Positions 3,964 through 17,139 of a stretch of DNA of 17,169 nt are shown here, in pieces. Position numbers and translations under genes: made by a program. The stretch's first letter is position 1. Each line of letters begins with the position of its first letter. The stretch is from the NCBI GenBank assembly GCA_017515945.1, contig JAFWDX010000464.1:1-17169 (forward strand), in the 5' to 3' direction. The notes under the pieces are model-generated. The model did no database searches. It worked only from the letters and a program-made list of their open reading frames with translations, and was not told where the DNA came from. The stretch is from Blautia sp. (lineage in GTDB: Bacteria; Bacillota; Clostridia; Lachnospirales; Lachnospiraceae).

Positions 3964-4012
3964 GAAAAGCAGGTGAAGATGACAGTAAAAACGCCATCTT
4001 CACCTGCTTTTC
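3964..4012 (-). terminator. 18-bp perfect hairpin in the opp leader: terminator or attenuator candidate
   Basis: Positions 3964-3981 and 3995-4012 are perfect 18-bp inverted repeats (gaaaagcaggtgaagatg and its complement) around a 13-nt loop. The foot of the stem is an A4/T4 pair outside GCAGG/CCTGC, the layout of a bidirectional intrinsic terminator. The T-tract is only four residues and is paired. It ends 17 nt before the oppD ATG and lies downstream of the likely opp promoter, so it would form in the opp leader RNA. It could attenuate opp, terminate read-through from rhaD, or protect the mRNA 5' end. Confidence 0.6.
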
Positions 4013-4159: not shown

Positions 4160-4193
4160 TTACGCACAGTTTAATTATTTAAATAGATTATTT

Positions 4194-4359
4194 GTAACTG
4201 TTCAGTCACAAGCTCCTTCACAGTTACGAGGCCAGGCGCAGGCTCCTTTCGTCGCATTGGAAGTGCGCCTCCCAAGGGACGCCTTCGGTGTGGCCTTGGC
4301 TGTTCAACTTTTGTCTCACGCACCTCGCAGTAAATGCGAGGTGCTGACTGAACAGTTAC
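4194..4359. repeat. Interspersed repeat copy A (full length, 166 bp)
   Basis: It starts with gtaactgttcagtca and ends with tgactgaacagttac, a perfect 15-bp terminal inverted repeat. The first 34 bp also form an imperfect palindrome of their own (gtaactgt ... acagttac). Near the right end is a 10-bp hairpin with arms gcacctcgca and tgcgaggtgc around a 5-nt loop (gtaaa). A 21-bp insert absent from copy F is at 4271-4291. It begins 2 nt after the rhaD stop and ends before the opp promoter. I see no protein-coding capacity; short frames inside it recur in every copy because the sequence recurs. Confidence 0.9.
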
Positions 4360-4361
4360 GA

Positions 4362-5192
4362 TTATTTCTTTTCATAGAGGAAGCGCTCCGGAAGGGTCAC
4401 ATGGAACCCATCCGCGACCTGACGCAGATTCTCTGCGGTGATCGTCTGGAGCTTGTCCGGGCGGACAGAGAGAACCTTGATCAGGATCTCGGCGGACTTC
4501 TCGATCGTGTGCATGAGACCGAAGGTCAGATCAAAATCCGGACCGGAGCAGAACATGCCGTGATGCGCCCAGATCGCCGCATCGTACTGTTCCATCAGAC
4601 GGCTGGTCGCGACCGCGATATCCCTGCCGCCGGGAACCATCCACGGCACGACGCCGACACCGCCGGGGAATACGACCGGACACTCTGTGGCGGACTCCCA
4701 CAGCTCACGGGTAAAGATCTCATCCTTGAGGGGAAGGATAAATGTGAGCGCGATGATATTGGTAGTATGGGCATGATAGATCACGCGGTGTTCCCCGTTC
4801 GTGACTCTCTTTTTGACCTCATGGTTCATCAGATGAGCAGGAAGCTCGCTGGTGGGCTTTCCTCCCTCAACCAGGCCCCAGCGGATCCTGTAGTTTTCAC
4901 CCTTTTCATCCAGCTCGATGATGGCGATGCAGGCCTCAGGGTCCACGATGACATTACGGAAATACTTGCCGCTCCCGGTCACCAGGAAAAACTCTCCGGC
5001 AAGTCCGGGCACGCTGGTGCCGATCGGTTCCCAGTTCGCGTGGTCATTCAGACGGGGCAGGATGTGCTGCACCTCTTCCGGTTTGAGACGATAGGACAGA
5101 TTGCCGCCGTTTCTCTCATGCCAGCCCTGCTGAAAGCCGTCATCCGCCATTTTTACAAAGCCGCGGACAAATTTAGTGTCAAGTATTTTCAT
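4362..5192 (-). CDS. rhaD: Rhamnulose-1-phosphate aldolase
   Basis: This is a zinc-dependent class II aldolase that splits L-rhamnulose 1-phosphate into DHAP and L-lactaldehyde in the cytoplasm. The 276 residues match the length of E. coli RhaD (274) and keep its blocks: WHERNGGNLSYRL (24-36), FLVTGSGKYFRNV (69-81), PTSELPAH (113-120) with catalytic Glu116, YHAHTTN with zinc ligands His140 and His142, and WAHHGMF with third ligand His211. AGAGGAG lies 7 nt before the ATG. The gene starts 24 nt after the transglutaminase-like gene at 5217-6218 and is probably co-transcribed with it. No rhamnose kinase, isomerase or regulator is nearby, so it stands apart from a usual rha operon. Repeat copy A follows 2 nt after the stop. 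Confidence 0.95.
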   Translation of the reverse strand: MKILDTKFVRGFVKMADDGFQQGWHERNGGNLSYRLKPEEVQHILPRLNDHANWEPIGTSVPGLAGEFFLVTGSGKYFRNVIVDPEACIAIIELDEKGENYRIRWGLVEGGKPTSELPAHLMNHEVKKRVTNGEHRVIYHAHTTNIIALTFILPLKDEIFTRELWESATECPVVFPGGVGVVPWMVPGGRDIAVATSRLMEQYDAAIWAHHGMFCSGPDFDLTFGLMHTIEKSAEILIKVLSVRPDKLQTITAENLRQVADGFHVTLPERFLYEKK

Positions 5193-5216
5193 AATTCTGC
5201 TCCTCTCTGAATAGCT

Positions 5217-6218
5217 TTAAAGCGTTTTTCCTGTAGCAAAATCTACGTACCGTGTCACCTGATAAGCGAACGGATAACTTGAAAGTCCGAACACACCCTG
5301 ATTCCATCCGGCAAACTGCCCCTCAGGATCATAAAACTGCCCGTTTATCAGCACCCAGCAGTGTGTGGTAAATCCGTCTGCCGCCCCGTCCACCGAACCG
5401 GGCACACGGCCGTAAATCAGGGTCGGTTTATACCCCAGCTCGGAAGCCATGGCCGCAAAGGCGCAGGAAAAGCTTATGCAGTCTCCCATATGCGTATTGA
5501 GCATATTCAGGGCACTGATCTTTGGCCACAGAGGATCATTGAGATCCAGGTCCCGCACGATATAGGAAAAGTTCGACTTGGATGTCAGCCATGTCCAGCA
5601 GGCATACAGTTTGTCCCTCTTTGACATGGAGTCATTCGTCAGGGAACGGACAACCTGCATCTGACGGAGCTTGAGCTGTCCCACCGTATTATTGACCATC
5701 TGGGAACCCTTGAAGGTTACGCCTGAAACCGTCCTGTCTTTTACGATCCTGCCCAGGGAATTGGCAAAATACAGCTTGCCGCCGACGATCAGCCAGCCGG
5801 TCTGACAGCGGCCGTATTTATCCGGGCAATACTGATAGTTCCCGACTGTGAACAGCTTGTTGACCGAAGACTTCCGGAGCATGCCGACTGTATTAAATAC
5901 ATATGTATATCCGTCAAGGCGGATCCAGTGCGTGACAGCTGCACCGTTGCTTTTAAAATAATAACGACGGACCAGATCTCCGGTGGACCGTTTGATGATC
6001 ACGTCTTTCCACTGGTTTTTCAGCTTTTTTCCATTCTCGTAGTAATAATACTTCCCGTTGATCTTATGCAGACCGTCTTTCTTTTGGGAAGCAGCCTTTG
6101 ATACGGCCGATGATGCCTGAGCGGAAATCTCCCCTGCCATAACAGGCGTATGCAGATACAGCGCCATGGTCAGCAGGCCCAGAAAGGCCATAATCAGAAT
6201 TTTGCGGGTCCTGTTCAT
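5217..6218 (-). CDS. Secreted transglutaminase-like protein with wall-binding-type repeats (TGase1)
   Basis: ATG at 6218 gives 333 residues with GAGGAG 6 nt upstream. The frame is open to 6392, but that extension is translated repeat copy B and is rejected. A signal peptide covers about 1-28 (RTRKILIM then a hydrophobic core, VMAG). Residues 50-160 contain aromatic repeats such as INGKYYYYENGKKLKNQW and TGWLIVGGKLYFANSLG, which resemble glucan/choline-binding repeats. The C-terminal transglutaminase-like fold has a Cys-His-Asp triad: Cys247 in MGDCISFSCAF, His286 in FTTHCWVL and Asp298 in FYDPEG. Such domains may cross-link, hydrolyse amides or act as proteases; the reaction cannot be told from sequence. 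A paralogue lies at 7328-8131, with an acidic secreted protein between them. Confidence 0.85.
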   Translation of the reverse strand: MNRTRKILIMAFLGLLTMALYLHTPVMAGEISAQASSAVSKAASQKKDGLHKINGKYYYYENGKKLKNQWKDVIIKRSTGDLVRRYYFKSNGAAVTHWIRLDGYTYVFNTVGMLRKSSVNKLFTVGNYQYCPDKYGRCQTGWLIVGGKLYFANSLGRIVKDRTVSGVTFKGSQMVNNTVGQLKLRQMQVVRSLTNDSMSKRDKLYACWTWLTSKSNFSYIVRDLDLNDPLWPKISALNMLNTHMGDCISFSCAFAAMASELGYKPTLIYGRVPGSVDGAADGFTTHCWVLINGQFYDPEGQFAGWNQGVFGLSSYPFAYQVTRYVDFATGKTL

Positions 6219-6250
6219 TTCTATCTCCTCAGTCTTACAGCGTTCAGTTT

Positions 6251-6437
6251 GTAACTGTTCAGTCGCAAGCTCCTTCACAGTTACGAGGCCAGGCGCAGGC
6301 TCCTTTCGTCGCATCGGAAGCCCGCCTCCCAAGGGACGCCTTCTGTGTGGCCCTGACTGTTCAGCTTTTGTCTCACGCACCTGCCAGGGCACGCCTGCGG
6401 CGTCGCAGTAAATGCGAGGTGCTGACTGTACATTTAC
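6251..6437. repeat. Interspersed repeat copy B (187 bp, two 21-bp inserts)
   Basis: It follows copy A closely, from gtaactgttcagtcgc to tgactgtacatttac; the right terminal repeat is degraded at two bases. It carries the same 21-bp insert as copy A (6328-6348) and a second related insert at 6383-6403, placed inside the left arm of the internal hairpin. It lies 1 nt after the stop codon of the acidic secreted protein and reaches to 32 nt before the TGase1 ATG. Confidence 0.88.
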
Positions 6438-6438
6438 T

Positions 6439-7236
6439 TCAGTTCAGAATAAGCCCATCATCCAGGCAGCCGTCATCACCGGAGCCGTCGCCGCCGTCCG
6501 TGCTGCCACTGTCATCTGAACCGGACTGTTCTTCATAATATCCGGTATCATAGTCCGAATTGCCATAATCATAGTCATAGTCATAATCATAACTGTAATC
6601 ATCGGACCCGCTTTCCTCGACATAGGCAGACGACTGATCAGAGGCTGCGGCAGTGTCATAGGAGCCCTCGGAACCGGCATCAGCAGCTGCATCCGTTGTT
6701 GCTGCGGCAGCCGCAAGGTTTTTCTCATGCTCCAGCGTATTCTGCTCTGCTTTCAGGCTCAGGCTCTCAAATACAAGATACCCGACACCGTCCTCCAGAC
6801 GGATCTCGGCCTTCTCCACATCACCGAAGGGGAATGTGTGCAGCAGTGCTTTCGTATCGTCCTCGAATGTCAGCTCGATATCATAAACCGGAGGCTTGTA
6901 ACCCTCTTTTGAAGGATCTGCTTCCTTTGGTGTGAAGTAAAGGATCCTCTCCTCATCTGCCGCAAAGACATCATCCTTTTCAAGCAGGTTGTCGCCCTTG
7001 CCCTCGCCGTCGATCTCAACCACAAATTCTTTGATACCCTTGCCGGTGGCGTTTTTGATGTCTACCTCGTAGTCGCCCTCTTCTTTTTTACCGATCGCGG
7101 CAGGCTCCTTTTTCTCCTCTCCTGCCTGTGTAAAGACAGCCGTATCCTCCGCGGCATCCTCGGCACAGAAAGCCGGGACAGTCAGGGCCAAAGCCAGTGC
7201 AGCTGCAAGTACAGATGATGTAATCTTTTTCTTCAT
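6439..7236 (-). CDS. Acidic secreted protein of unknown function with Asp/Tyr-rich C-terminus
   Basis: I do not recognise a characterised family. The 265-residue product begins MKKKITSSVLAAALALALTV, a clear signal peptide with cleavage near residues 24-25 (PAFC-AE). The Cys there lacks a good lipobox. A mature domain at about 55-160 looks beta-rich, with YEVDIKNATGKGIKEFVVEI, then YDIELTFEDD and a GDVEKAEIRLEDGVGYLVF-like block. An Ala-rich stretch (173-188) leads to an Asp/Ser/Tyr tail with alternating DYDYDYDYDY at 216-224. It ends GCLDDGLILN, placing Cys257 nine residues from the end. GGAGAG lies 5 nt before the ATG. It sits between two transglutaminase-like genes, which suggests but does not show that it is a surface partner or substrate. 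Confidence 0.8.
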   Translation of the reverse strand: MKKKITSSVLAAALALALTVPAFCAEDAAEDTAVFTQAGEEKKEPAAIGKKEEGDYEVDIKNATGKGIKEFVVEIDGEGKGDNLLEKDDVFAADEERILYFTPKEADPSKEGYKPPVYDIELTFEDDTKALLHTFPFGDVEKAEIRLEDGVGYLVFESLSLKAEQNTLEHEKNLAAAAATTDAAADAGSEGSYDTAAASDQSSAYVEESGSDDYSYDYDYDYDYGNSDYDTGYYEEQSGSDDSGSTDGGDGSGDDGCLDDGLILN

Positions 7237-7268
7237 AATATCTCTCCTGAATTTCTATAATCACAGAT

Positions 7269-7328
7269 GTAACTGTCCAGTCACAAGCTCCTTCGTAACT
7301 GTCCAGTCACAGGCTCCTTTACAGTTAT
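7269..7328. repeat. Interspersed repeat copy C (short, tandem 26-bp units)
   Basis: Two 26-bp direct repeats (7269-7294 and 7295-7320, 24 of 26 identical) both match the left end of the long copies, with a shared tt-to-tc change (gtaactgtccagtca). They are followed by acagttat at 7321-7328. The last base is shared with the TGA stop codon of the TGase2 gene, so the element abuts the gene exactly. The internal hairpin and 21-bp inserts are absent. Confidence 0.82.
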
Positions 7329-8131
7329 CATAAATCAATATTCTTTTTATCTCTTCCGTTATTTGCCCAGTCCGGCCGTCCATCCACGCCGCTTAAAGCC
7401 CTTGGAACAGCGTAGCATGCAGCAGATCCGATCTCCGTCGCCCAGTTGGGATCATAATACAGTCCCTTCTGTTCCACCCAGGCATGGCCGCCTGAACCGG
7501 CCATAACGGGATTTGCATATCCGATCGCATTGACAAAATACGCAAACGCACCTGCAAAGGCATAGCAGTCACCATACCCTCTGTTCAGCATCCACTCCGC
7601 ATAAGCCACATCCCAGTCGCTCACGCCTGTGAAGAGATCCGGGATCGCGCTTACGGTATAGTGCGTCTTGGTGTACTCAAACATGATCTTGCGCTTTGTG
7701 CACATTTTCTGATCCGGGTTGGTCAGAGAGTTGACGATCTGTGCCGCCTTGACCATCACGTTCAGCTTTCGCTGCACGGCTGTACTGCTGATGACAGCCT
7801 TGCCGTCTGCGCCAAGTGAAACCCCGTCAATTTTCGTATTTTTAAGCATATATCCGCCGGCTTTTCTTTTCTGGCGGAAAAAATAATAGTCATTTTTGTA
7901 TTTTACCCATCCGGTCTGCTGATTACGGCTGTTGTTAAAGTAATACTTCTGGCCGTTGATCGTGTGGATCCCCCACATGGCTTTTTCATATTTATTGTAA
8001 AATTTGTATTGGTTTCCTACATGCACCCATTTGTTTTTAAGGCTCTTAGCCTGTGCTGAAGCGGTGCACAAGAACAACGAAAATAAGATCAGCGCCGCGA
8101 TCGTCAATACCCTTCTTTGCTTTTTTTCCAT
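7328..8131 (-). CDS. Secreted transglutaminase-like protein with wall-binding-type repeats (TGase2)
   Basis: The 267-residue protein has a signal peptide ending at AQA-K (about 28). Aromatic repeats follow at 33-90 (INGQKYYFNNSRNQQTGWV, YKNDYYFFRQ). A transglutaminase-like catalytic domain carries Cys189 in GYGDCYAFAGAF, His216 in GGHAWVEQ and Asp228 in YYDPNW. AGGAGG lies 4 nt before the ATG, which starts 11 nt after the SGNH-like gene stop, so it is in the MBOAT operon. It shares its layout with TGase1 at 5217-6218 but the two are clearly diverged. The likely site of action is outside the membrane or at the wall. The family includes hydrolases as well as cross-linkers, so enzymatic function is open. 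Confidence 0.86.
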   Translation of the reverse strand: MEKKQRRVLTIAALILFSLFLCTASAQAKSLKNKWVHVGNQYKFYNKYEKAMWGIHTINGQKYYFNNSRNQQTGWVKYKNDYYFFRQKRKAGGYMLKNTKIDGVSLGADGKAVISSTAVQRKLNVMVKAAQIVNSLTNPDQKMCTKRKIMFEYTKTHYTVSAIPDLFTGVSDWDVAYAEWMLNRGYGDCYAFAGAFAYFVNAIGYANPVMAGSGGHAWVEQKGLYYDPNWATEIGSAACYAVPRALSGVDGRPDWANNGRDKKNIDL

Positions 8132-8142
8132 ACGTCCTCCTG

Positions 8143-9120
8143 TTAATCCTCCCCGTCCAGAACACGGGCAAGAACCTTTGAAAAGTCCCTTGCCGCATCG
8201 CCATGCATGTGTCCGTCCAGATCAGTATATGCATTCACTTTGTGCGTAAACAAATCATAATACTCTTCTGAATTAAAATCAATATATTTTACACCTTGTT
8301 CCTGATAAAAGTCACTGAAAAACGCGCCTGCCTGCGTATAGCTGTCCGCGTATTTTTCGAGCGTCGGAGCGGCTGTCGGTGTGGCGATCGAGACAAATTC
8401 AATGTCTTCATCCCTGCACAGGCGGATCAGTCGCCGGATCCATTCAAGATTTTCCTCTATAAGGTTTTCCCTGGAAAAAGACTCATATGAAGGGAATTTA
8501 AAGGTCGAGGGATCCACCGGATAACGCTCAATATACCCGTCCTCATGATACTCCTGAGCATCTGAACGGAGGATATCCAGGTCATAAGACCCGGTCAGCT
8601 TCTGTCCCAGATTGGTCTTTATCATACCCAGCTCCGTGGAAAGCGGATACTCATACCATGGGAAGAGCACCGTGCGGATATTGCAGTCGGCCACACATGA
8701 GAAAAAGTACTCAAGCTTTGTGCGGGAAAACGGAAATTCATGGTAAAACAGCAGGTAATTGTTTCCTTCTTCTTTCTGAAGCGTAAAATATTCACCTGTC
8801 GTCACATAAACCACCCGTTTCGGCTTTGTCCCCTTTTCCACCATCAACTTCACCAGATAGTAGGCATCGATGGGGTATTCACCGCCGTTGGCCATGTTAT
8901 GGCCGGTACGTCCGGACACCTCCTGCATCGCGGACGGATTGATGTTGATCTTGCCATGAGATGTACCCAGATAAATGTCATCCACTCTTTCCGACATGAT
9001 CGCATGGACGTCATTGCGGATATAAGTGCAGGGATACAGCGCCAGATCCACGAACCGATAAAACACACAGATCACGCAAACTGCAAGCAAGACCTTAATC
9101 CATTTACTAGAACTGCGCAT
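8143..9120 (-). CDS. Membrane-anchored SGNH/DltD-like protein partner of the MBOAT acyltransferase
   Basis: I chose ATG at 9120, giving 325 residues (MRSSSKWIKVLLAV), with AAAGGA 7 nt upstream. It overlaps the MBOAT stop by 14 nt, indicating translational coupling. A single N-terminal membrane segment lies at about 7-25, with the rest expected outside. DDIYLGTSHGKININ at 47-61 matches the first SGNH block with Ser54 as nucleophile. DLDGHMHGDAARDFSKVL near 300-317 matches the last block, with His304 and Asp300 or Asp302. The family includes DltD and AlgJ/AlgX-like proteins that work with an MBOAT to move or finish acyl groups on envelope polymers. Without a close characterised relative I leave the symbol blank. 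Confidence 0.82.
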   Translation of the reverse strand: MRSSSKWIKVLLAVCVICVFYRFVDLALYPCTYIRNDVHAIMSERVDDIYLGTSHGKININPSAMQEVSGRTGHNMANGGEYPIDAYYLVKLMVEKGTKPKRVVYVTTGEYFTLQKEEGNNYLLFYHEFPFSRTKLEYFFSCVADCNIRTVLFPWYEYPLSTELGMIKTNLGQKLTGSYDLDILRSDAQEYHEDGYIERYPVDPSTFKFPSYESFSRENLIEENLEWIRRLIRLCRDEDIEFVSIATPTAAPTLEKYADSYTQAGAFFSDFYQEQGVKYIDFNSEEYYDLFTHKVNAYTDLDGHMHGDAARDFSKVLARVLDGED

Positions 9121-10624
9121 AGATAAATCCTTTCGCGGCCGCAGTGCAGCCGAACAGACCGATACAAAGCAGCAGGACGGCATAGACCGCACAGACTGCG
9201 GGGAACGGCAGCTTTGCTGCCAGGCTTTCACGGATCTTCACACCTTTTTCCTGTATGCATCCGACCGTGATGACGACGATCGTACCGACCGCAATGATCA
9301 GCAGCGCCCACGGTGCAAAGCTGACGCCCTGACTGCCCGCAGGAACCTGCAGCAGCTGAGAGGGATTGAAGCGGGTGAAAGCCAGCATGAGCAGATATCC
9401 GGCCTGAGGTACCGACCGTGCCATATCAAGAACAGACTCCAGGCAGAAGATCAGCTGGGTCCGCAGGATCATAAAGAGGACATACCACTTTTCGGTGCCT
9501 TTGATATGCAGTTTTTTCTTCCATACGGCATAGCTGTCCGTTAATACCTCGCTGACCGCGATGATAATGCCGTTGGAAAAACCATATGCGACAGAGATCC
9601 AGCTGGCTCCATGCCAGATACCGACCAGGAGGAACACCACCAGCTCTGCCTGGGCCACCTGTATATTGCGGGCAGCTTTTCTGCCGAATTTTTTCTTCGT
9701 GGCTTTGGTGATCTTCTGTACCGGTGTTGTGAGTGAAACCGGATAAAATACATAACGCATCATCCATTCACCCAATGTAATATGCCATCTCTTCCACAGA
9801 TTGGCCAGGGATGTGGCCAGATAAGGATTGCGGAAATTTTCCTGCATCTCGATGCCGAACAGGCTCCCGATCCCGATCACGATGTCCATCGCGCCGGAGA
9901 AATCCATGTACAGATTAATATAATAAAGCAGCAGACCCAGGCCTACTACGCCATTATATTTACCGGGATCCTGGCTGATCGCGTCGGCAAAGACCCCAGC
10001 CCAGTCGGCAATGATCATTTTTTTGCAAAGACCCCAGATGATCCTCTCCACACCCCTGCAGATCCGCTGCAGGTCAAAGCTGTGAGAATCATAAAGCTGA
10101 TGAGCCAGGTGGTCATACTTTGAGATCGGTCCCTGCATGATCTGCGGAAAGAAAGACACAAACAGTGCATATTTAAAAAAGTTTTTTTCCGCATGAAATT
10201 TCTTCCAGAATACATCCAGCAGATAGCCGGAGGACTGGAACGTATAGAATGAAATTCCCAGGGGGAACAGAACTTTCAAAACGGGAATCTGTATGTGAAA
10301 CAGACTGTTCGCGTTTTCAATAAAGAAATTGGCATACTTTACATAGCCAAGCATGCCGAAATTGAGGATAAGACCGACAGCGACGACCCGCTTTACCGTC
10401 TGCTGATCAGTCTCCTTCTCCCAGAGCCGGTCGATCAGCCTGGCACAGGTATACGTAACCGCCGTGGAAAAAAGAATATAGACGACGAACCGGACTCCGC
10501 CTGTGACATAATAAATATAGCTGAACAACAGCAGGACAACCCATTGTGCCTTTCGCGGGGCAAGGTAATATACCAGGACTGCAAGGGCTGTAAACAGAAA
10601 AAACAAATTTGATACCAGGGGCAT
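9107..10624 (-). CDS. MBOAT-family O-acyltransferase (DltB/AlgI-like)
   Basis: ATG at 10624 with AGGAGG 6 nt upstream gives 505 residues (MPLVSNLFFLFTALA); the frame is open to 10669 but without a ribosome site. About ten hydrophobic segments are visible. The MBOAT hallmarks are FPLGISFYTFQSSGYLLDVF (120-139), SFFPQIMQGPISKYDHL (157-173), the cytosolic active-site loop LWKRWHITLGEWMMRYVFYP (276-295) with His281, and LVGIWHGASW with His338. The family takes an acyl group from a carrier-bound thioester in the cytoplasm and passes it through the membrane to an envelope polymer. The adenylation gene upstream and the SGNH-like gene overlapping downstream support a Dlt-like pathway. The acyl group and the acceptor polymer are unknown. 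Confidence 0.92.
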   Translation of the reverse strand: MPLVSNLFFLFTALAVLVYYLAPRKAQWVVLLLFSYIYYVTGGVRFVVYILFSTAVTYTCARLIDRLWEKETDQQTVKRVVAVGLILNFGMLGYVKYANFFIENANSLFHIQIPVLKVLFPLGISFYTFQSSGYLLDVFWKKFHAEKNFFKYALFVSFFPQIMQGPISKYDHLAHQLYDSHSFDLQRICRGVERIIWGLCKKMIIADWAGVFADAISQDPGKYNGVVGLGLLLYYINLYMDFSGAMDIVIGIGSLFGIEMQENFRNPYLATSLANLWKRWHITLGEWMMRYVFYPVSLTTPVQKITKATKKKFGRKAARNIQVAQAELVVFLLVGIWHGASWISVAYGFSNGIIIAVSEVLTDSYAVWKKKLHIKGTEKWYVLFMILRTQLIFCLESVLDMARSVPQAGYLLMLAFTRFNPSQLLQVPAGSQGVSFAPWALLIIAVGTIVVITVGCIQEKGVKIRESLAAKLPFPAVCAVYAVLLLCIGLFGCTAAAKGFIYAQF

Positions 10625-10636
10625 GAGCAACCTCCT

Positions 10637-10656
10637 GCTCTGCATCATGGCAGAGC
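10637..10656 (-). promoter_or_regulatory. 7-bp hairpin directly upstream of the MBOAT ribosome site
   Basis: Arms gctctgc (10637-10643) and gcagagc (10650-10656) flank a 6-nt loop. It ends within a few bases of the AGGAGG site. The identical arms occur in the hairpin upstream of the adenylation gene (12305-12323). Confidence 0.5.
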
Positions 10657-10660
10657 CTGA

Positions 10661-10700
10661 AAAAGCCAAAGAAGCAGGCAGAGGAAAAGTTCTGCCTGCT
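10661..10700 (-). terminator. Hairpin with T-rich tail between the adenylation and MBOAT genes
   Basis: On the minus strand the arms at 10691-10700 and 10673-10682 form a perfect 10-bp stem (AGCAGGCAGA/TCTGCCTGCT) with an 8-nt loop, followed by TCTTTGGCTTTTT. The interrupted U-tract makes a partial terminator likely, which would reduce MBOAT operon expression relative to the adenylation gene. Parts of both arms can also pair with the next hairpin at 10637-10656. Confidence 0.5.
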
Positions 10701-10705
10701 GATTC

Positions 10706-10763
10706 GTAACTGTTCAGTCACAAGCTCCTTCCTGACTGAACAGTTACCCTCCTTCACAGTTAC
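10706..10763. repeat. Interspersed repeat copy D (short; ends only)
   Basis: The left end gtaactgttcagtcacaag (unit 10706-10731) is joined directly to the right terminal repeat tgactgaacagttac (ends 10747), forming a perfect 15-bp hairpin with a 12-nt loop. An extra cctccttcacagttac follows at 10748-10763. It starts 6 nt after the adenylation gene stop. It looks like an internal-deletion form of the long element. Confidence 0.82.
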
Positions 10764-10769
10764 CACATA

Positions 10770-12287
10770 TCAATTATGCCTGAGTTCCTTGCGCAGCATA
10801 ACTCTGTCGATCTTGCCGTTCAGGTTGTGAGGCATTTCTTCGAGATGGACTCTTCTGCGGGGAAGCATATATGTCGGAAGTTTCTCCGTCAGGATGCTGC
10901 CCAGATCCTTTGCATCAATGGTTCCCGTGTAAAAGACCACAATATGCTTTGACTCTGCGTCATACAGACAGGCGTTTTCCGCGACACCGGGAACCGTGGA
11001 GATATTCGCCTCAATCTCACCCAGCTCGATCCGGTATCCCAGATATTTGATCTGGAAATCCTTGCGGCCGATGTAAAGATAATTGCCGTCTTCTCTCATC
11101 GTGCCCAGATCACCGGTGCGGTAGATTTTTTCCTCATAACTGTGATTGAGCGGATTCTGCACAAAGACCTCAGCTGTTCTCTCCGGATCGTTATAATATC
11201 CATAGCTCAGTGAAGGGCCACGGGCACAGATCTCTCCGATCTCGCCTGGCTCTGTGACCAGCTGGTCATTTTCATCCAGCAGAAGGATCTCCATGTTTGG
11301 ATTTGGCTTTCCGATCGGCAGGCTGTCACCGCCTTCGTATGTGCCTTCAAACACAAATGACATACACCCGTCCGTGAGTTCTGTGGATCCATAACCATTT
11401 ACAAATCTGAGGCCGGGTGCATGCTCAGCCCAGGCCCGGATGACATTGACCGGCATCACCTCGCCGCCGAACAGGACTCTGCGAATGCTGCTGATATCAC
11501 CGACTTCAAATGCGTCCATGTTCACAATACTCTGAAGGATGGACGGTACCCAGTTGATCGCGGTGACCTGGTGTTCTTCAATGTACTTTACCAGCATGGC
11601 CGGGAATGAAAAGTACACAGGCGGAACCATATGGGTAGTTGCGCCAAGCAGAACAGGGCCAAACATCTCTATCACAGCCATGACAAAATAAAACGGAGCC
11701 TGGCTCAGCATAACATCAGACTCTTCAAGGCCATAGACCTGGTGGAACACTGTCATTGCATAAATATACAAAGCCTGGTGTGAGGTTACCACGCCTTTCG
11801 GAATGCCGGTAGAACCGGATGTGAACAGCACAAAAAGCACATCCGAGGAAAGGACTCTGGACGTAGCAGCAGAAACATACGCGTCCTGCAGCTCCTGTTT
11901 CATCAGATCTTCATAGATCAGCACAGGCAGGTCCCGGGCTATGGCAGCCACACTGCCGGCAGACTGTTCCACCGTCACAAAAGCAGCAGGCTGCAGAGTC
12001 GTCAGAATCTTCTGAATGCGTTCCTGCGGCATGCTCGTATCTATGATCGTATAGAAATTGCCGCTGTAGGCAATTCCGAATACAGCAGCGATACATTCGA
12101 CAGATTTGTCAATATAAATAACAACCGGTTTTTTAAACAAGCCCTCCCGGATCAGTCCCTGCGCGACCAGCCGTGATTCTGTACGGATCTGGGAAAACGT
12201 AAGCGAGCGGTTCTGGTCGACATAGGCCGCTTTATCAGGCAGGCGGGAAGCGGTCTCATCCAAAAGGTCTGTTATGATATAGGCCAT
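10770..12287 (-). CDS. Stand-alone adenylation enzyme (DltA/NRPS-like, AMP-binding)
   Basis: ATG at 12287 with AAAGGAG 6 nt upstream gives 505 residues, the usual DltA length; the frame is open to 12341 without a ribosome site. Motifs are the P-loop LFTSGSTGIPKG (154-165), NGYGSTE (297-303), YRTGDLG (389-395), GRKDFQIKYLGYRIELGEIE (407-426) and the C-terminal catalytic lysine in NGKIDR (Lys492). The enzyme would activate a carboxylic acid as an adenylate and load it on a carrier thiol. DltA has an Asp in its FDLS block that binds the D-Ala amine; here the aligned residue is Val202 (APFYFVMAV). DltA has FCGE; here it is FGGE (272-275). Substrate is therefore probably not D-alanine. No carrier protein gene is adjacent. 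It likely feeds the MBOAT gene downstream. Confidence 0.9.
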   Translation of the reverse strand: MAYIITDLLDETASRLPDKAAYVDQNRSLTFSQIRTESRLVAQGLIREGLFKKPVVIYIDKSVECIAAVFGIAYSGNFYTIIDTSMPQERIQKILTTLQPAAFVTVEQSAGSVAAIARDLPVLIYEDLMKQELQDAYVSAATSRVLSSDVLFVLFTSGSTGIPKGVVTSHQALYIYAMTVFHQVYGLEESDVMLSQAPFYFVMAVIEMFGPVLLGATTHMVPPVYFSFPAMLVKYIEEHQVTAINWVPSILQSIVNMDAFEVGDISSIRRVLFGGEVMPVNVIRAWAEHAPGLRFVNGYGSTELTDGCMSFVFEGTYEGGDSLPIGKPNPNMEILLLDENDQLVTEPGEIGEICARGPSLSYGYYNDPERTAEVFVQNPLNHSYEEKIYRTGDLGTMREDGNYLYIGRKDFQIKYLGYRIELGEIEANISTVPGVAENACLYDAESKHIVVFYTGTIDAKDLGSILTEKLPTYMLPRRRVHLEEMPHNLNGKIDRVMLRKELRHN

Positions 12288-12304
12288 TTGTTTCTCCTTT
12301 CTGT

Positions 12305-12323
12305 GCTCTGCTGACCGCAGAGC
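12305..12323 (-). promoter_or_regulatory. 5'-end hairpin of the adenylation gene transcript
   Basis: Arms gctctgc (12305-12311) and gcagagc (12317-12323) surround a 5-nt loop. The predicted start site from the promoter at 12330-12357 is about 12323, so this hairpin would be the first structure of the mRNA. It ends four bases before the AAAGGAG ribosome site. Its arms equal those of the hairpin before the MBOAT gene. Confidence 0.5.
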
Positions 12324-12329
12324 GTATTT

Positions 12330-12357
12330 ATGATACCACATTTTCAGAGAATCGCAA
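12330..12357 (-). promoter_or_regulatory. Proximal promoter of the adenylation gene
   Basis: On the minus strand TTGCGA (12352-12357) and TATCAT (12330-12335) are 16 nt apart. Both are moderate matches to sigma-A boxes. Start near 12323 gives a 35-nt leader. Confidence 0.6.
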
Positions 12358-12546
12358 AAGAAAAAAACTCACCTGTTACGTTGACAGTATTATGCATTTT
12401 TCACCATATCGGGCTCACAATCTCCTGATGCCCGTAAAGTCAAACGGAGTCAGTATAACATATGCCTCAGACCCTGCAAAGGATTTCGGCACATTTCACC
12501 GTCTGTATTGTCTGACACAGCAATTGACACAGGGAGCGCATTGCGG
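12358..12546. other. Gene-free stretch upstream of the adenylation gene
   Basis: Between the lgt terminator and the proximal promoter I see no convincing gene on either strand. It contains the distal promoter at 12452-12480 and a T-rich run on the minus strand at about 12360-12369. The plus-strand frame at 12392-12622 crosses the terminator palindrome and has no ribosome site, so I do not call it. Confidence 0.5.
12452..12480 (-). promoter_or_regulatory. Distal extended -10 promoter of the adenylation gene
   Basis: On the minus strand TTTGCA (12475-12480) and TATACT (12452-12457) are 17 nt apart, with TG one base before the -10 box. Start would be near 12445, giving a leader of about 160 nt. 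Confidence 0.6.
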
Positions 12547-12593
12547 AAAAAAGGGGACGATCTGTGTGTTGGACAACACACAAAACCGTCCCC
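12547..12593 (-). terminator. Intrinsic terminator after lgt, built on a GGGGACGG-type palindrome
   Basis: On the minus strand GGGGACG (12587-12593) pairs with CGTCCCC (12553-12559). An inner stem GTGTGTT/AACACAC (12575-12581, 12564-12570) has a 4-nt loop, and a small internal loop separates the two stems. Six T residues follow (12547-12552). It would end the symporter-ychF-lgt transcript. The GGGGACGG...CGTCCCC outer arms resemble REP-like palindromes that are frequent in Clostridia; that link is from memory. Confidence 0.85.
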
Positions 12594-12618
12594 TGTATTC
12601 CTTAATCATAGTTCATCC

Positions 12619-12652
12619 GTAACTGTGAAAGAGCTTGTGACTGAACAGTTAC
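12619..12652. repeat. Interspersed repeat copy E (minimal 34 bp, inverted)
   Basis: This is the reverse complement of the first 34 bp of copy A with one mismatch, bounded by gtaactgt and acagttac. Its terminal gttac contains the TAA stop codon of lgt (12649-12651), so the element overlaps the coding end. It is followed 25 nt later by the lgt terminator. Confidence 0.82.
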
Positions 12653-14352
12653 AGGTCCTCTTCAATTGAATCGGGCGCGAGCAGATCCGAAAATGTAAAT
12701 GACACAGCATTATCCGGCACAGCCTGTTTCTGTTCCTGATCCTGATCCTGTCCGGCAGGATCCTCCGGCCCGGGGACGTCATCGACCACATAATCCGGCA
12801 CTGTCCGGATCCGGCCGCCTTCCCTGCGTACACGGTCTTCCTTTACCGTCACAGCCGCAGTCTCTTCTTCAGGCTCATCCGATTTGGCTGTAACCTCATC
12901 CTCCTTTGCCTGCTCCCGTCTGCGGGAGAACTTCCCGCTGTCCGCCTCAACCATGGCCCAGTCTTCGGCGGTCAGGCCTCCCAGGTTTTCGTCCGTTATT
13001 TCCGTCTCGGCAGTATTTTCGGTCTCTGTTGCCATACCATCATTCAGACCGGCATCTTTGCCTGTGTTTTCATCCGGAATTCCGTCAGCCTCTGTATCCG
13101 GACCTTTATCTGTTTCAGTGCCTTTCCCTGCCGGAATATCCGTATCATCCTCTGCTGCAGTGTCTGCGTGTCTGCGCTTACTCCGCTTTTTCTTCTTTTG
13201 CTTTTCAGCCTTTTCGGGCTTTACGTCCTGTTTCTTCTTTTTACGTACCTCACGCCGGCTTTCTTCGATCTCATCCACCACTGCTTCCAGCTCTGCCATC
13301 AGCTCTTCGTGGCTGTGAGCGGCTTCGGGATCCTCCTCCCTGATCTGGCGGAACTCTTCGGGAACCGCTGCCTCGGCATACTCACCGTCCACAGCCTCTT
13401 CCGCCTTTTGTTCGCGCCTGATTTCCCGCTCCTCCTCGTCCCTGGCGATCCGTTCCTCAAATTCATACTTGAGCTCTCTGCGCTGGCGGCGGTAACGGGA
13501 TCTCTTTTTCTCCATGCCTCTGCGCAGGATCCGTACAATGATGCCTGCTGCAGCCAGCACAATACTGACGATCATGTTGACCGGCAGATCCGTCCCCGGG
13601 ACCAGCATCTTATCTGTGCGCAGATATTCGATGCAGGCCCGGCCAAAGCCGTACCCGGCCAGATATCTGAAAAAGATCTCACCGTCAAAAAGCCTGTACC
13701 TGCGACGTACGAGCAGGATGAAGAGCAGGAGCAGACACCAGACACTCTCATACAGGAAGGTGGGATGAACCTGAATAAAGGATGATCCGTCAATCTGGAT
13801 CAGATTTTCCCTCATCAGTCCCGTCACCTCCGAGGAGTGGACGGCGTTCAGCGGAAGCTGCATGGCCACAGGCCAGTCCGTATACTCACCAAACGAACTC
13901 CTGTTAAAAAAGTCTCCCCAGCGTCCGATAAACTGCCCGGCCAGAAGTCCCAGGCTGAGATTATCCGCCATTTTCCAGAAGGAAGCGCCTTTACACACAT
14001 TGCTCACGATCAGCAGCGCGAGCACGCCGCCCAGCAGGCCGCCGTAAAAGCCCAGCCCTCCGCTCCGGATATCCAGGATTTTTTTCAGATCCGCCTTATA
14101 CAGGTTCCAGTAAAAAGCGACGTAATAGATACGCGCGCCAAGTACGCCGAAAATCAGTCCGAGGATCATGGTATCCAGATAATGATTGGGATTTTCATGG
14201 CTGCGTTTCGCCTCGAGGATCACAAAGGCCATGGCCAGGATCATGCCCATGGCGATCAGGATCCCGTAGCAGGAAATATCCATGCCAAAGAGGCGGACGG
14301 TCTTTACGATATAGGGTAAAACCAGCCCCGCTCCCGGGAAACGAATTGACAT
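12649..14352 (-). CDS. lgt: Prolipoprotein diacylglyceryl transferase with long charged C-terminal tail
   Basis: Lgt moves diacylglycerol from phosphatidylglycerol to the lipobox Cys of prelipoproteins at the membrane. I prefer ATG at 14352 (567 residues, MSIRFPGAG); the GTG at 14367 has its AAAGGGG abutting the codon. Residues 1-278 are a complete multi-helix Lgt core with SGGLGFYGGLLGG (97-109), Tyr29, the signature GRWGDFFNRSSFG (143-155), VHPTFLYES (195-203) and R238/E242 in the last conserved block. Compared with E. coli, Asn146 corresponds to Asp147 and Glu151 to Ser152. Residues 279-567 form a 289-residue Glu/Lys/Arg/Asp-rich, probably disordered cytoplasmic tail with a KKKKRSKRR cluster near 386-394; the usual protein is about 260-290 residues in total. 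The gene starts 32 nt after ychF. Confidence 0.92.
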   Translation of the reverse strand: MSIRFPGAGLVLPYIVKTVRLFGMDISCYGILIAMGMILAMAFVILEAKRSHENPNHYLDTMILGLIFGVLGARIYYVAFYWNLYKADLKKILDIRSGGLGFYGGLLGGVLALLIVSNVCKGASFWKMADNLSLGLLAGQFIGRWGDFFNRSSFGEYTDWPVAMQLPLNAVHSSEVTGLMRENLIQIDGSSFIQVHPTFLYESVWCLLLLFILLVRRRYRLFDGEIFFRYLAGYGFGRACIEYLRTDKMLVPGTDLPVNMIVSIVLAAAGIIVRILRRGMEKKRSRYRRQRRELKYEFEERIARDEEEREIRREQKAEEAVDGEYAEAAVPEEFRQIREEDPEAAHSHEELMAELEAVVDEIEESRREVRKKKKQDVKPEKAEKQKKKKRSKRRHADTAAEDDTDIPAGKGTETDKGPDTEADGIPDENTGKDAGLNDGMATETENTAETEITDENLGGLTAEDWAMVEADSGKFSRRREQAKEDEVTAKSDEPEEETAAVTVKEDRVRREGGRIRTVPDYVVDDVPGPEDPAGQDQDQEQKQAVPDNAVSFTFSDLLAPDSIEEDL

Positions 14353-14384
14353 ATCCACTCTCTTCACCCCTTTCAGTCGGGTCT

Positions 14385-15482
14385 TCAGACATTAAATCTG
14401 AAGAGGATCACGTCGCCGTCCTGTACAACATATTCCTTGCCCTCCATACGGACAAGCCCTTTTTCACGGGCTCCGGCATATGAACCGCAGTCCAGCAGAT
14501 CCTTGTAGTTGACGACCTCCGCCTTGATAAAGCCCCGCTCAAAATCCGTATGGATCTTGCCGGCAGCCTGCGGCGCTTTGGTACCGATCCGGATCGTCCA
14601 GGCCCGGGTCTCGTCCTCTCCGCTGGTCAGAAAGCTCATCAGACCCAGCAGGCGGTAGCTGGCGGCGATCAGCTTGTCAAGCCCGGATTCCCTGATCCCC
14701 AGATCCTCCAGGAACAGCTGCTTTTCATCATCATCCAGCTCCGCGATCTCCTCCTCGATCCTGGCACAGATGACAAACACCTCACTGCCGGAAGAAGCGG
14801 CATACTCGCGCACCGTTTTCACGTAGGCATTTTCCGCGCCGTCGTCGGCCAGGTCATCCTCGGAGACGTTGGCGGCAAAGATGACCGGCTTGGCCGTCAG
14901 CAGATTGTAGGAGGCGAAAAACGCCTGTTCATCCTCATTCTCCGTTTCAAGCGTGATCGCAGGCTTTCCCTCCTCCAGATGAGCCTTGACCTTTTGCAGG
15001 AAATCAAATTCCTTGCCGGCGGTCTTGTCCATCTTTGCGCTGCGCCCGACTTTTGAGATCCGGCGCTCCAGGATCTCCAGATCCGAAAAGATCAGCTCCA
15101 GATTGATCGTCTCGATGTCCCTGAGCGGATCGATGCTGCCGTCCACATGGATGACATTGGAGTCCTCAAAACAGCGCACCACATGCACGATGGCGTCCAC
15201 CTCGCGGATATTTGCCAGGAACTGATTGCCCAGCCCTTCACCCTTGGACGCGCCTTTGACCAGTCCGGCAATATCCACAAACTCGATCACGGCAGGTGTT
15301 ACTTTTTTGGATTTGTAAAAATCTCCCAGCAGCTTCAGTCTGGGATCCGGAACCGGTACGATACCGATATTTGGGTCGATCGTGCAGAATGGATAATTGG
15401 CGGACTCGGCGCCTGCTTTGGTCAGTGAATTGAAAAGTGTACTCTTCCCGACATTCGGGAGGCCTACGATACCCAGTTTCAT
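14385..15482 (-). CDS. ychF: Redox-regulated ATPase YchF (Obg-family, ATP-specific)
   Basis: This universal P-loop ATPase binds ribosomes and is tied to stress and translation control. Its 365 residues match the family (363 in E. coli). Walker A GLPNVGKS is at 7-14, the switch region ANYPFCTIDPN at 28-38, DIAGLVKGASKGEGLGNQFL at 70-89 is the G3 and YchF signature, and the G4 position reads NVSE at 205-208, the NxxE form that favours ATP over GTP. The C-terminal TGS domain covers roughly 280-364. AAAGGAG is 5 nt before the ATG, 11 nt after the symporter stop. Confidence 0.97.
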   Translation of the reverse strand: MKLGIVGLPNVGKSTLFNSLTKAGAESANYPFCTIDPNIGIVPVPDPRLKLLGDFYKSKKVTPAVIEFVDIAGLVKGASKGEGLGNQFLANIREVDAIVHVVRCFEDSNVIHVDGSIDPLRDIETINLELIFSDLEILERRISKVGRSAKMDKTAGKEFDFLQKVKAHLEEGKPAITLETENEDEQAFFASYNLLTAKPVIFAANVSEDDLADDGAENAYVKTVREYAASSGSEVFVICARIEEEIAELDDDEKQLFLEDLGIRESGLDKLIAASYRLLGLMSFLTSGEDETRAWTIRIGTKAPQAAGKIHTDFERGFIKAEVVNYKDLLDCGSYAGAREKGLVRMEGKEYVVQDGDVILFRFNV

Positions 15483-15493
15483 GTAAGCTCCTT

Positions 15494-16891
15494 TCAGGCG
15501 ATCACGCCCTTTTTTGTATTCTTCAGGACAGGCAGCGGGGTTTCATCTTTGTCGTCTATATGGCTGCCGGCATATTTTTTGGTCTCCCGCGCGATCACGC
15601 CGGACAGCAGCAGGACTGCAATGATGTTCGGCACCGCCATCAGGCCGTTCAGCAGATCGGCCAGATCCCAGACCGTATTGAGCTTGATCACACAGCCTGT
15701 GAACACGCCGATCACCCAGAGTACCTTGTATATGAAAATAGCCTTTTCACCGAACAGGTACACCGCGCACCGCTCACCATAGTAATACCAGCCCAGGATC
15801 GTGGAAAAGGCAAAGGTGATCAGGCCTACGATCAGGATCGGGAGCCCCACCTTGGGGATCATGGAAAAAGCCATACTGGTCAGTTCGCTGCCGTTGCCGG
15901 AAAGTCCGTCGATAGACGGATGCTTGATAATGGAGGATACCAGCACCAGACCGGTCAGCAGGCAGATCACAACGGTGTCCCAGAAGGTTCCTGTCATGGA
16001 GACCAGCGCCTGCCTCTTGGCATTGCGGGTCTGCGCCGCGGATGCCACCAGCGGAGCGGAGCCCATGCCGGATTCATTGGAGAAGAGTCCCCGCGCAAAG
16101 CCATAACGGCAGGCTGTGGTGATCGTACTGCCGATAAAGCCACCTCCGACAGCCTGTGCAGAAAACGCTGCCCGGCAGATGGTCACAACGGCCTGACCGA
16201 GCGCGTCCGCGTTGATGATCAGGATAACGATACAGCCGAGCACATAAAACAACGCCATAAAGGGCACCAGCTTCTCGGAAACCTTTGTGATGGATTTGAT
16301 CCCGCCGATGATGGTCAGGCCTACGATGATACTCAGGACCAGTGCAACGACCCATGGAGAAATCCCGAGGTTTTCCTGAAAATTGGAGGCCACGGCATTT
16401 GCCTGCACCATACAGCCGATGCCAAGGCCGCAGACGGATGCCAGCAGTGCGAAAACAATACCGAGCCATTTCATGTGAAGTCCTCTGTCAAGCGCATACA
16501 TGGCACCGCCGATCATGGTCCCGTTTTCACTCTTGACGCGGTACTTGACAGCGATCACCGTCTCCGCGTATTTCGTGGCCATGCCGAACACGCCGGTCAG
16601 CCACATCCACAGTACGGATCCGGGGCCGCCCAGTGCGATGGCAGTCCCGACACCGATGATATTGCCGGTCCCGATGGTCGAGGAAAGCGCGGTCGTAAGC
16701 GCGCCGAACTGCGATACGTCGCCCTCCGCGTCCGCATCCTTTGACACGGACAGTTTTATCGCCTTAAATATGTCTTTCTGAATAAAGCCGGTCCGGATCG
16801 TCATGAAAATATGCGTGCCGAACAAAAGCAGGATCAGGGGCCATCCCCACAAAATGCTGTCAAGTTTTCCAATCAGTTGTGCAAAAGTCAT
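15494..16891 (-). CDS. Sodium:alanine/glycine symporter, AGCS family
   Basis: ATG at 16891 gives 465 residues (MTFAQLIGKLDSILWG), the usual AGCS length; the open frame to 16981 runs through a terminator and is rejected. The family signature is at about 70-97: SSTIGTGNIIGVGTAIALGG followed by PGSVLWMW. Other typical blocks are KYAETVIAVKYR (107-118), GGAMYAL, SNESGMGSAPLVASAA and WYYYGERC. About ten membrane helices are visible. It imports alanine or glycine with sodium. The ribosome site is a purine-rich AAGGGAAG. No promoter stands out in the 60 nt between the terminator at 16952-16979 and the start. It is followed by ychF after 11 nt. Confidence 0.94.
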   Translation of the reverse strand: MTFAQLIGKLDSILWGWPLILLLFGTHIFMTIRTGFIQKDIFKAIKLSVSKDADAEGDVSQFGALTTALSSTIGTGNIIGVGTAIALGGPGSVLWMWLTGVFGMATKYAETVIAVKYRVKSENGTMIGGAMYALDRGLHMKWLGIVFALLASVCGLGIGCMVQANAVASNFQENLGISPWVVALVLSIIVGLTIIGGIKSITKVSEKLVPFMALFYVLGCIVILIINADALGQAVVTICRAAFSAQAVGGGFIGSTITTACRYGFARGLFSNESGMGSAPLVASAAQTRNAKRQALVSMTGTFWDTVVICLLTGLVLVSSIIKHPSIDGLSGNGSELTSMAFSMIPKVGLPILIVGLITFAFSTILGWYYYGERCAVYLFGEKAIFIYKVLWVIGVFTGCVIKLNTVWDLADLLNGLMAVPNIIAVLLLSGVIARETKKYAGSHIDDKDETPLPVLKNTKKGVIA

Positions 16892-16951
16892 TGTGTATTC
16901 TTCCCTTCTAAATTGGATTGAATGAATAAAGCTCTTAAATGAATAAACCAG

Positions 16952-16979
16952 AAAAAAGCAGGCAGCCCGAGCCGCCTGC
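16952..16979 (-). terminator. Intrinsic terminator upstream of the symporter gene
   Basis: On the minus strand GCAGGCGGC pairs with GCTGCCTGC (one G-U) around a UCGG loop, and TTTTTT follows at once. The stem spans 16958-16979 and the T-tract 16952-16957. It most likely ends the gene lying beyond the right edge; it could instead attenuate the symporter gene. Confidence 0.85.
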
Positions 16980-16994
16980 ATGTATACTCGCGGG

Positions 16995-17139
16995 GTAACT
17001 GTTCAGTCACAAGTTTCTTCACAGTTACGAGGCCAGGCGCAGGCTCCTGTCGCCGCATTGGAAGTGCGCCTGGCCTTGACTGTTCGACTCTTTTCTCACG
17101 CACCTCGCAGTAAATGCGAGGTGCTGACTGAGCAGTTAC
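16995..17139. repeat. Interspersed repeat copy F (145 bp, without the 21-bp insert)
   Basis: It matches copies A and B from gtaactgttcagtcac to tgactgagcagttac, with one mismatch in the right terminal repeat and the same gcacctcgca/tgcgaggtgc hairpin. It lacks the 21-bp insert: gtgcgcct runs straight into ggccttgac at 17071/17072, giving an empty site. The gene upstream on the minus strand lies outside the window, so its distance to a stop codon cannot be judged. Confidence 0.88.

Follow-up and report, generated by a model that had tools for sequence, protein, structure and literature searches.

The window, by which we mean the whole 17,169-nucleotide stretch of Blautia DNA analyzed, holds six copies of a short repeat, A to F (Table 1), set among genes that include an aldolase-family gene, lgt (12649-14367) and a symporter gene. 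A, B and F are full elements, and C, D and E are short forms from a 34-bp right-end unit. The 15-mer that marks the ends gives 14 matches in the window at up to 3 mismatches, compared with 0.23 expected, a few of which (e.g. 4045/4086 and 15747) are weak three-mismatch matches outside the six copies. The initial annotation had described six places that share the same 15-bp ends. The places stand, but the statement about the ends was too strong, given 1-2 mismatches in the ends of B and F, one mismatch in C, and the 15-mer at a single end of E.

The distances to minus-strand stop codons given there are correct. Copy A lies 2 bp, B 1 bp and D 6 bp from the stop; C overlaps it by one base, its last base completing the TGA of the gene at 7328-8131, and E overlaps the stop of lgt, which is the TAA inside GTAAC of this copy, so that the element itself supplies the stop. 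Copy F sits upstream of the symporter gene, and the neighbor on its opposite side falls outside the window; no target duplication was seen in its flanks (8/8 mismatches). The terminator-like hairpins described after D, E and F are likewise present. Genes were called by a custom script, which misplaced the start of the gene at 5217. Apart from the six copies, a perfect 18-bp inverted repeat with a 13-base loop occupies 3964-4012, at the start of an ABC-transporter ATPase gene.

Table 1. Repeat copies, target duplications, cassettes and adjoining hairpins in the window.
Feature	Coordinates	Strand	Remarks
Copy A, full element, 166 bp	4194..4359	-	transcribed with surrounding minus-strand genes
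Target duplication GATTATTT, left of copy A	4186..4193	.	perfect 8-bp match (0 mismatches)
Target duplication GATTATTT, right of copy A	4360..4367	.	contains stop codon 4362-4364 of the aldolase-family gene 4362-5192
21-bp cassette within copy A	4271..4291	-	
Copy B, full element, 187 bp, two cassettes	6251..6437	-	
Target duplication TTCAGTTT, left of copy B	6243..6250	.	7/8 match
Target duplication TTCAGTTC, right of copy B	6438..6445	.	contains stop 6439-6441 of gene 6439-7236
21-bp cassette in copy B	6328..6348	-	position as in copy A
Second 21-bp cassette of copy B	6383..6403	-	within end-1 hairpin
Copy C, 34-bp end unit and partial second unit in tandem	7269..7328	-	1 mismatch
Copy D, rearranged short form	10706..10763	-	42 bp between two exact ends, plus remnant
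Terminator-like hairpin after copy D	10673..10700	-	hairpin scan
Copy E, single 34-bp end unit	12619..12652	-	15-mer at single end
Terminator-like hairpin after copy E	12553..12593	-	by eye; absent from scan list
Copy F, full element, 145 bp, without cassette	16995..17139	-	
Terminator-like hairpin after copy F	16958..16979	-	hairpin scan

Genome-wide distribution and architecture of the family

A search of the whole genome for the ends, as the initial annotation had suggested, confirmed that the repeats in the window are real and belong to a large family. At up to one mismatch there are 565 end sites (274 forward and 291 reverse), against none in the control, in an assembly of 2.6 Mb in 518 contigs that is 79% complete. 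Exact matches number 363 here and at most 7 elsewhere, with a site in 8 of 116 genomes, this one included. Across 397 genomes from the bacterial family, 98 have a site at up to one mismatch, the next highest count being 9, a figure that holds for this end sequence only, since the exact or near-exact 15-mer search misses variant families in relatives such as Clostridium sp. MCC353. An uncultured Blautia record (L106) carries a site pair also found for a congener (G003), and no match to the element was found in plasmids and phages (distant blastn).

Two samples were analyzed, a first one consisting of the window and 80 contigs, partly picked for element presence, and a validation sample of 40 further contigs. 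Density was therefore taken only from 39 contigs at steps of ten, which hold 38 clusters in 118,211 non-N bases, or 2.7% of bases, and extrapolate to about 840 clusters in the genome; full elements, short units and some single ends are all counted as clusters here, 42 of 160 clusters having a single match. The 34-bp end unit is the commonest form of the family and by itself makes up 21 of the 38 clusters. Counting both strands, the first sample also contains 54 occurrences of another repeat family, GGGACAGGTTCC, and the hairpin adjoining copy E, which begins GGGGACGGTTTT, resembles it.

When 38 hand-picked copies are aligned, the main difference between them is a 21-bp cassette found at four positions, one inverted, the number of cassettes giving element sizes of 145, 166 and 187 bp. 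The cassette is followed by AGG in 85 of the 92 matches inside clusters, and 25 more matches lie beyond the set cluster limits, most of them with the same flanks. Each of the three sizes, together with an 8-bp duplication, comes to a multiple of three, an observation to which we attach no function.

Transposition and its probable IS66-type source

The first sample contains 75 paired elements with terminal inverted repeats. Among the 73 that are testable, 38 are flanked by an 8-bp duplication with at most one mismatch, compared with 0.7 expected from random pairing of flanks, and in the validation contigs the same holds for 16 of 22 (0.84 expected); the remaining 35 and 6 elements lack one. Duplications of 2-7 and 9-12 bp show a slight excess at most, and 8 bp alone stands out. 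One element (L166:2990) interrupts another copy, and its joined flanks resemble that copy's interior. Because the paired elements carry these 8-bp target duplications in both samples, the repeats, which are short, lack a transposase gene and occur in many copies, are MITEs, and the MITE-like character first proposed for them is upheld. No autonomous relative sharing these ends turned up in this genome, an absence that is no proof at 79% completeness, and the term MITE is also applied to non-autonomous families that lack a resident partner.

As to what moves the family, the sequence comparisons make it very probable that this is an IS66-type (ISBst12-like) MITE mobilized by the transposase of a donor element. 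The proposal builds on direct observation of the anatomy, the target duplications, the copy number, the similar IS66 ends in relatives and the one nested insertion. Of 64 genomes of the genus, 31 encode an IS66 transposase (PF03050), and we looked for the ends in 74 IS66-type loci. Five of these combine a perfect 8-bp duplication with two ends that each depart from the MITE end at no more than 5 of 15 bases; three are in the genus (L238, L244 and L246) and two in the family (L356 and L364). Over the first 12 bases the ends of L238 and L244 differ from the MITE end by one, and over the full 15 the best IS66 ends are still 3-5 mismatches away. Both loci score above the Pfam cut-off, and the NCBIfam IS66 model matched below its cut-off. 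The remaining loci have different ends (e.g. GTAAGCGTC in L227) or no clean pair. Loci of other species yielded 20 elements that have similar ends and are flanked by 8-bp duplications, including one in a Treponema and one in an Acidobacteria record (L074, L075).

The GTAACTGTTCAG ends would, we suggest, be the binding sites of such a transposase, which would place the element mostly between genes and duplicate 8 bp of the target. We infer a donor because no element with these exact ends was found in the incomplete genome. The sole IS66 transposase found in this genome lacks such ends, and a search with the L244 protein gave no match here and matches in 35 of the 397 genomes. No transposase-sized element with such ends and an 8-bp duplication appeared in the loci with end matches, where the longest were 451 and 566 bp.

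The 34-bp unit either was left behind by deletion or is a mobile element of unusually small size. Solo units carry 8-bp duplications in 23 of 56 cases, compared with 0.66 expected, and their target logo differs from that of full elements: the duplication begins with A in 15 of 23 solo units and with G in 32 of 52 full elements (p 0.0001), and its eighth base is C or G in 19 of 23 versus 24 of 52 (p 0.005), all tests on this unit having been made after the data were seen. Age was considered as the cause of the different logo, and splitting by divergence, in small groups, leaves the difference in place. In Clostridium sp. MCC353 a 30-bp unit has 97 forward and 95 reverse matches, largely at the same palindromic places. 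The unit is palindromic and terminates elements of about 136 bp on one side, and 8-bp duplications are visible around some of these elements (L420-L436). A reading of 29 units in 17 loci gave 4 with their own 8-bp duplication (0.4 expected), and many others are ends of longer elements. Two further genomes, those of L067 (G127) and L101 (G118), contain 31-bp palindromes of the same end type at 18 and 12 places per strand; several of those in the former are found no more than about 125 bp from the start of a contig, which looks as though the assembly broke there.

It is possible, though we regard it as doubtful, that the 34-bp unit (30 bp in MCC353) is mobile in its own right, as two head-to-head fused IS66-type transposase-binding ends with 8-bp duplications and a target preference of its own, the longer elements being modular composites that also carry 21-bp cassettes of about two helical turns. 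The evidence for self-movement is the different target logo. It is the minority reading because deletion between repeats inside a long element would leave solo units in both species, much as solo LTRs arise, and because 34 bp leaves a transposase little length in which to pair the two ends. Either way the unit is a minimal one, close to two bare transposase sites.

Placement and orientation relative to genes

The placement of five of the six copies at stop codons had suggested an element that targets gene ends. Of 113 stop-facing cases in the first sample, 43 are no more than 10 bp away from the stop, where 18.7 would be expected, and 7 of 131 lie within 10 bp of starts (16.3 expected); without the window, 38 of 108 are near stops against 17.1. 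The validation contigs give 8 of 34 (5.9 expected, p 0.17). Many of these stops are supplied or overlapped by the element itself (16 of 43 in the first sample and 5 of 8 in validation), and dropping element-supplied stops leaves 3 of 29 in validation, against 2.7. With both samples pooled and the window left out, 46 of 142 are near stops, compared with 23.0 expected, including 19 of the 46 element-supplied or overlapped; the count without element-supplied stops is 27 of 123 (15.2 expected, p 0.001). When 20 bp before starts are protected as well, the excess shrinks to 26 of 111 against 19.0 (p 0.023), and for the validation contigs alone it is gone (3 of 24, 2.9 expected). Loci of other species give 5 of 19 stop-facing cases within 10 bp, as a raw count with no null. 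The stop-codon rule is therefore at most weak, a slight bias in the pooled samples with no excess in validation, and the window's five of six is exceptional.

Near-stop placement may arise mainly from three sources. Insertions into coding sequence or immediately ahead of starts would be lost, the TAA in GTAAC would end translation at once in one of three frames when an insertion strikes the last codons, and some stops would be preserved inside the duplication. Part of the first-sample excess is not fully explained in this way. That the transposase recognizes stop-codon regions or transcript ends, so that the element specifically targets gene ends, nonetheless seems unlikely to us: the first-sample excess, the excess that persists in the pooled samples without the window and without element-supplied stops, and a target logo similar to W-GA, which includes TGA, speak for such targeting, but the validation counts, before and after element-supplied stops are removed, and the reduced excess once starts are protected argue against it, and weighting by the motif lifts the near-stop share only from 0.061 to 0.077.

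The orientation bias is stronger than the stop bias. Between tandem genes, 62 elements are co-directional and 14 opposed in the first sample, and 17 and 6 in validation (p 0.035), or 79 versus 20 overall; the ratio is 49:9 for elements nearer the stop and 30:11 for those nearer the start. At 14 of 21 divergent sites, the right end is turned toward the closer start. The target logo is itself oriented, with G first in 20 and A second in 27 of 38 duplications. This motif predicts a co-directional share of 0.71 near stops and about even elsewhere, and accounts for little of the proximity. Thus co-directional orientation is only partly explained by the oriented target motif, which gives some of the effect near stops; the rest probably reflects selection against the opposite strand in transcripts. 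Replication strand was rejected as the cause: GC skew agrees at just 9 of 20 convergent and divergent sites, and among the few tandem sites against GC skew, orientation tracked the genes in 4 of 5.

Co-directional orientation in 79 of 99 tandem gaps is also what would favor the other idea of the initial annotation, a 3'-UTR RNA module that has spread and is kept for protecting or processing mRNA ends. The element folds far better than shuffles (z -6.4 and -7.1 for the two strands), and hairpins follow D, E and F. Equal folding on both strands, however, is expected of palindromic DNA, covariation is almost nil (2 of 32 predicted pairs changed on both sides; covariation term -0.12), the three Rfam matches in the window all fall far below gathering scores with none above chance, and 41 of the 99 tandem cases lie nearer starts. 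The orientation and folding fit such a module, to which we nonetheless give a low probability. REP/REPIN elements spread by a RAYT (Y1) transposase are highly improbable, since high copy number, palindromic form, mostly extragenic location and the sole Y1 match in this incomplete genome, a transposase fragment in an 86-aa open frame at the edge of a contig (C444, L217), fit the REP-like label first given, but fixed 8-bp target duplications, which Y1 transposition is not known to leave, and IS66-like ends speak against it.

Comparison with known systems

The family is a tiny transposon without its own transposase gene, present in hundreds of places, mostly between genes and mostly co-directional with them. 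Hundreds of insertions of one family make it possible to read how a small transposon shapes gene ends, with element-supplied stops, co-directional orientation and a minimal unit. The case also shows that six copies in one window can hint at a targeting rule that is barely borne out genome-wide.

No title or abstract in the limited literature searched names a MITE derived from IS66 or ISBst12. One of the closest counterparts is QMITE2 of Coxiella, described in PMC5896051 and PMC10969869 as a MITE of 150-190 bp found mainly in 3' untranslated regions. Its repeats are variable, at 7-11 nt, in contrast to the 8 bp and IS66-type ends seen here, and the text examined reports no fixed orientation, whereas an orientation bias was measured for the present family. 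ERIC, RUP and other bacterial MITEs resemble it in being small, intergenic and present in many copies with terminal inverted repeats, according to PMC2229807; there, the ends of RUP match an IS that supplies the transposase, and RUP and most of the MITEs covered have TA ends, unlike the GTAAC ends and 8-bp duplications of this family. REP and REPIN sequences are likewise palindromic and extragenic with hundreds of copies (PMC2817692 and PMC3116915), and this family differs from them in its target duplications and IS66-type ends. An 8-bp repeat is recorded for two Paracoccus IS66 elements (PMC3281130). Ends beginning GTAAC..TTCAG are common to the MITE, the five IS66 loci and ISDge4, a member of the ISBst12 group that has been seen to transpose. 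According to PMC12898284, the end of ISDge4 is GTAACTGCTCAGCA, compared with GTAACTGTTCAGTCA here, and both show an 8-bp direct repeat; unlike the elements described here, of 34 to about 190 bp, ISDge4 contains a transposase gene.
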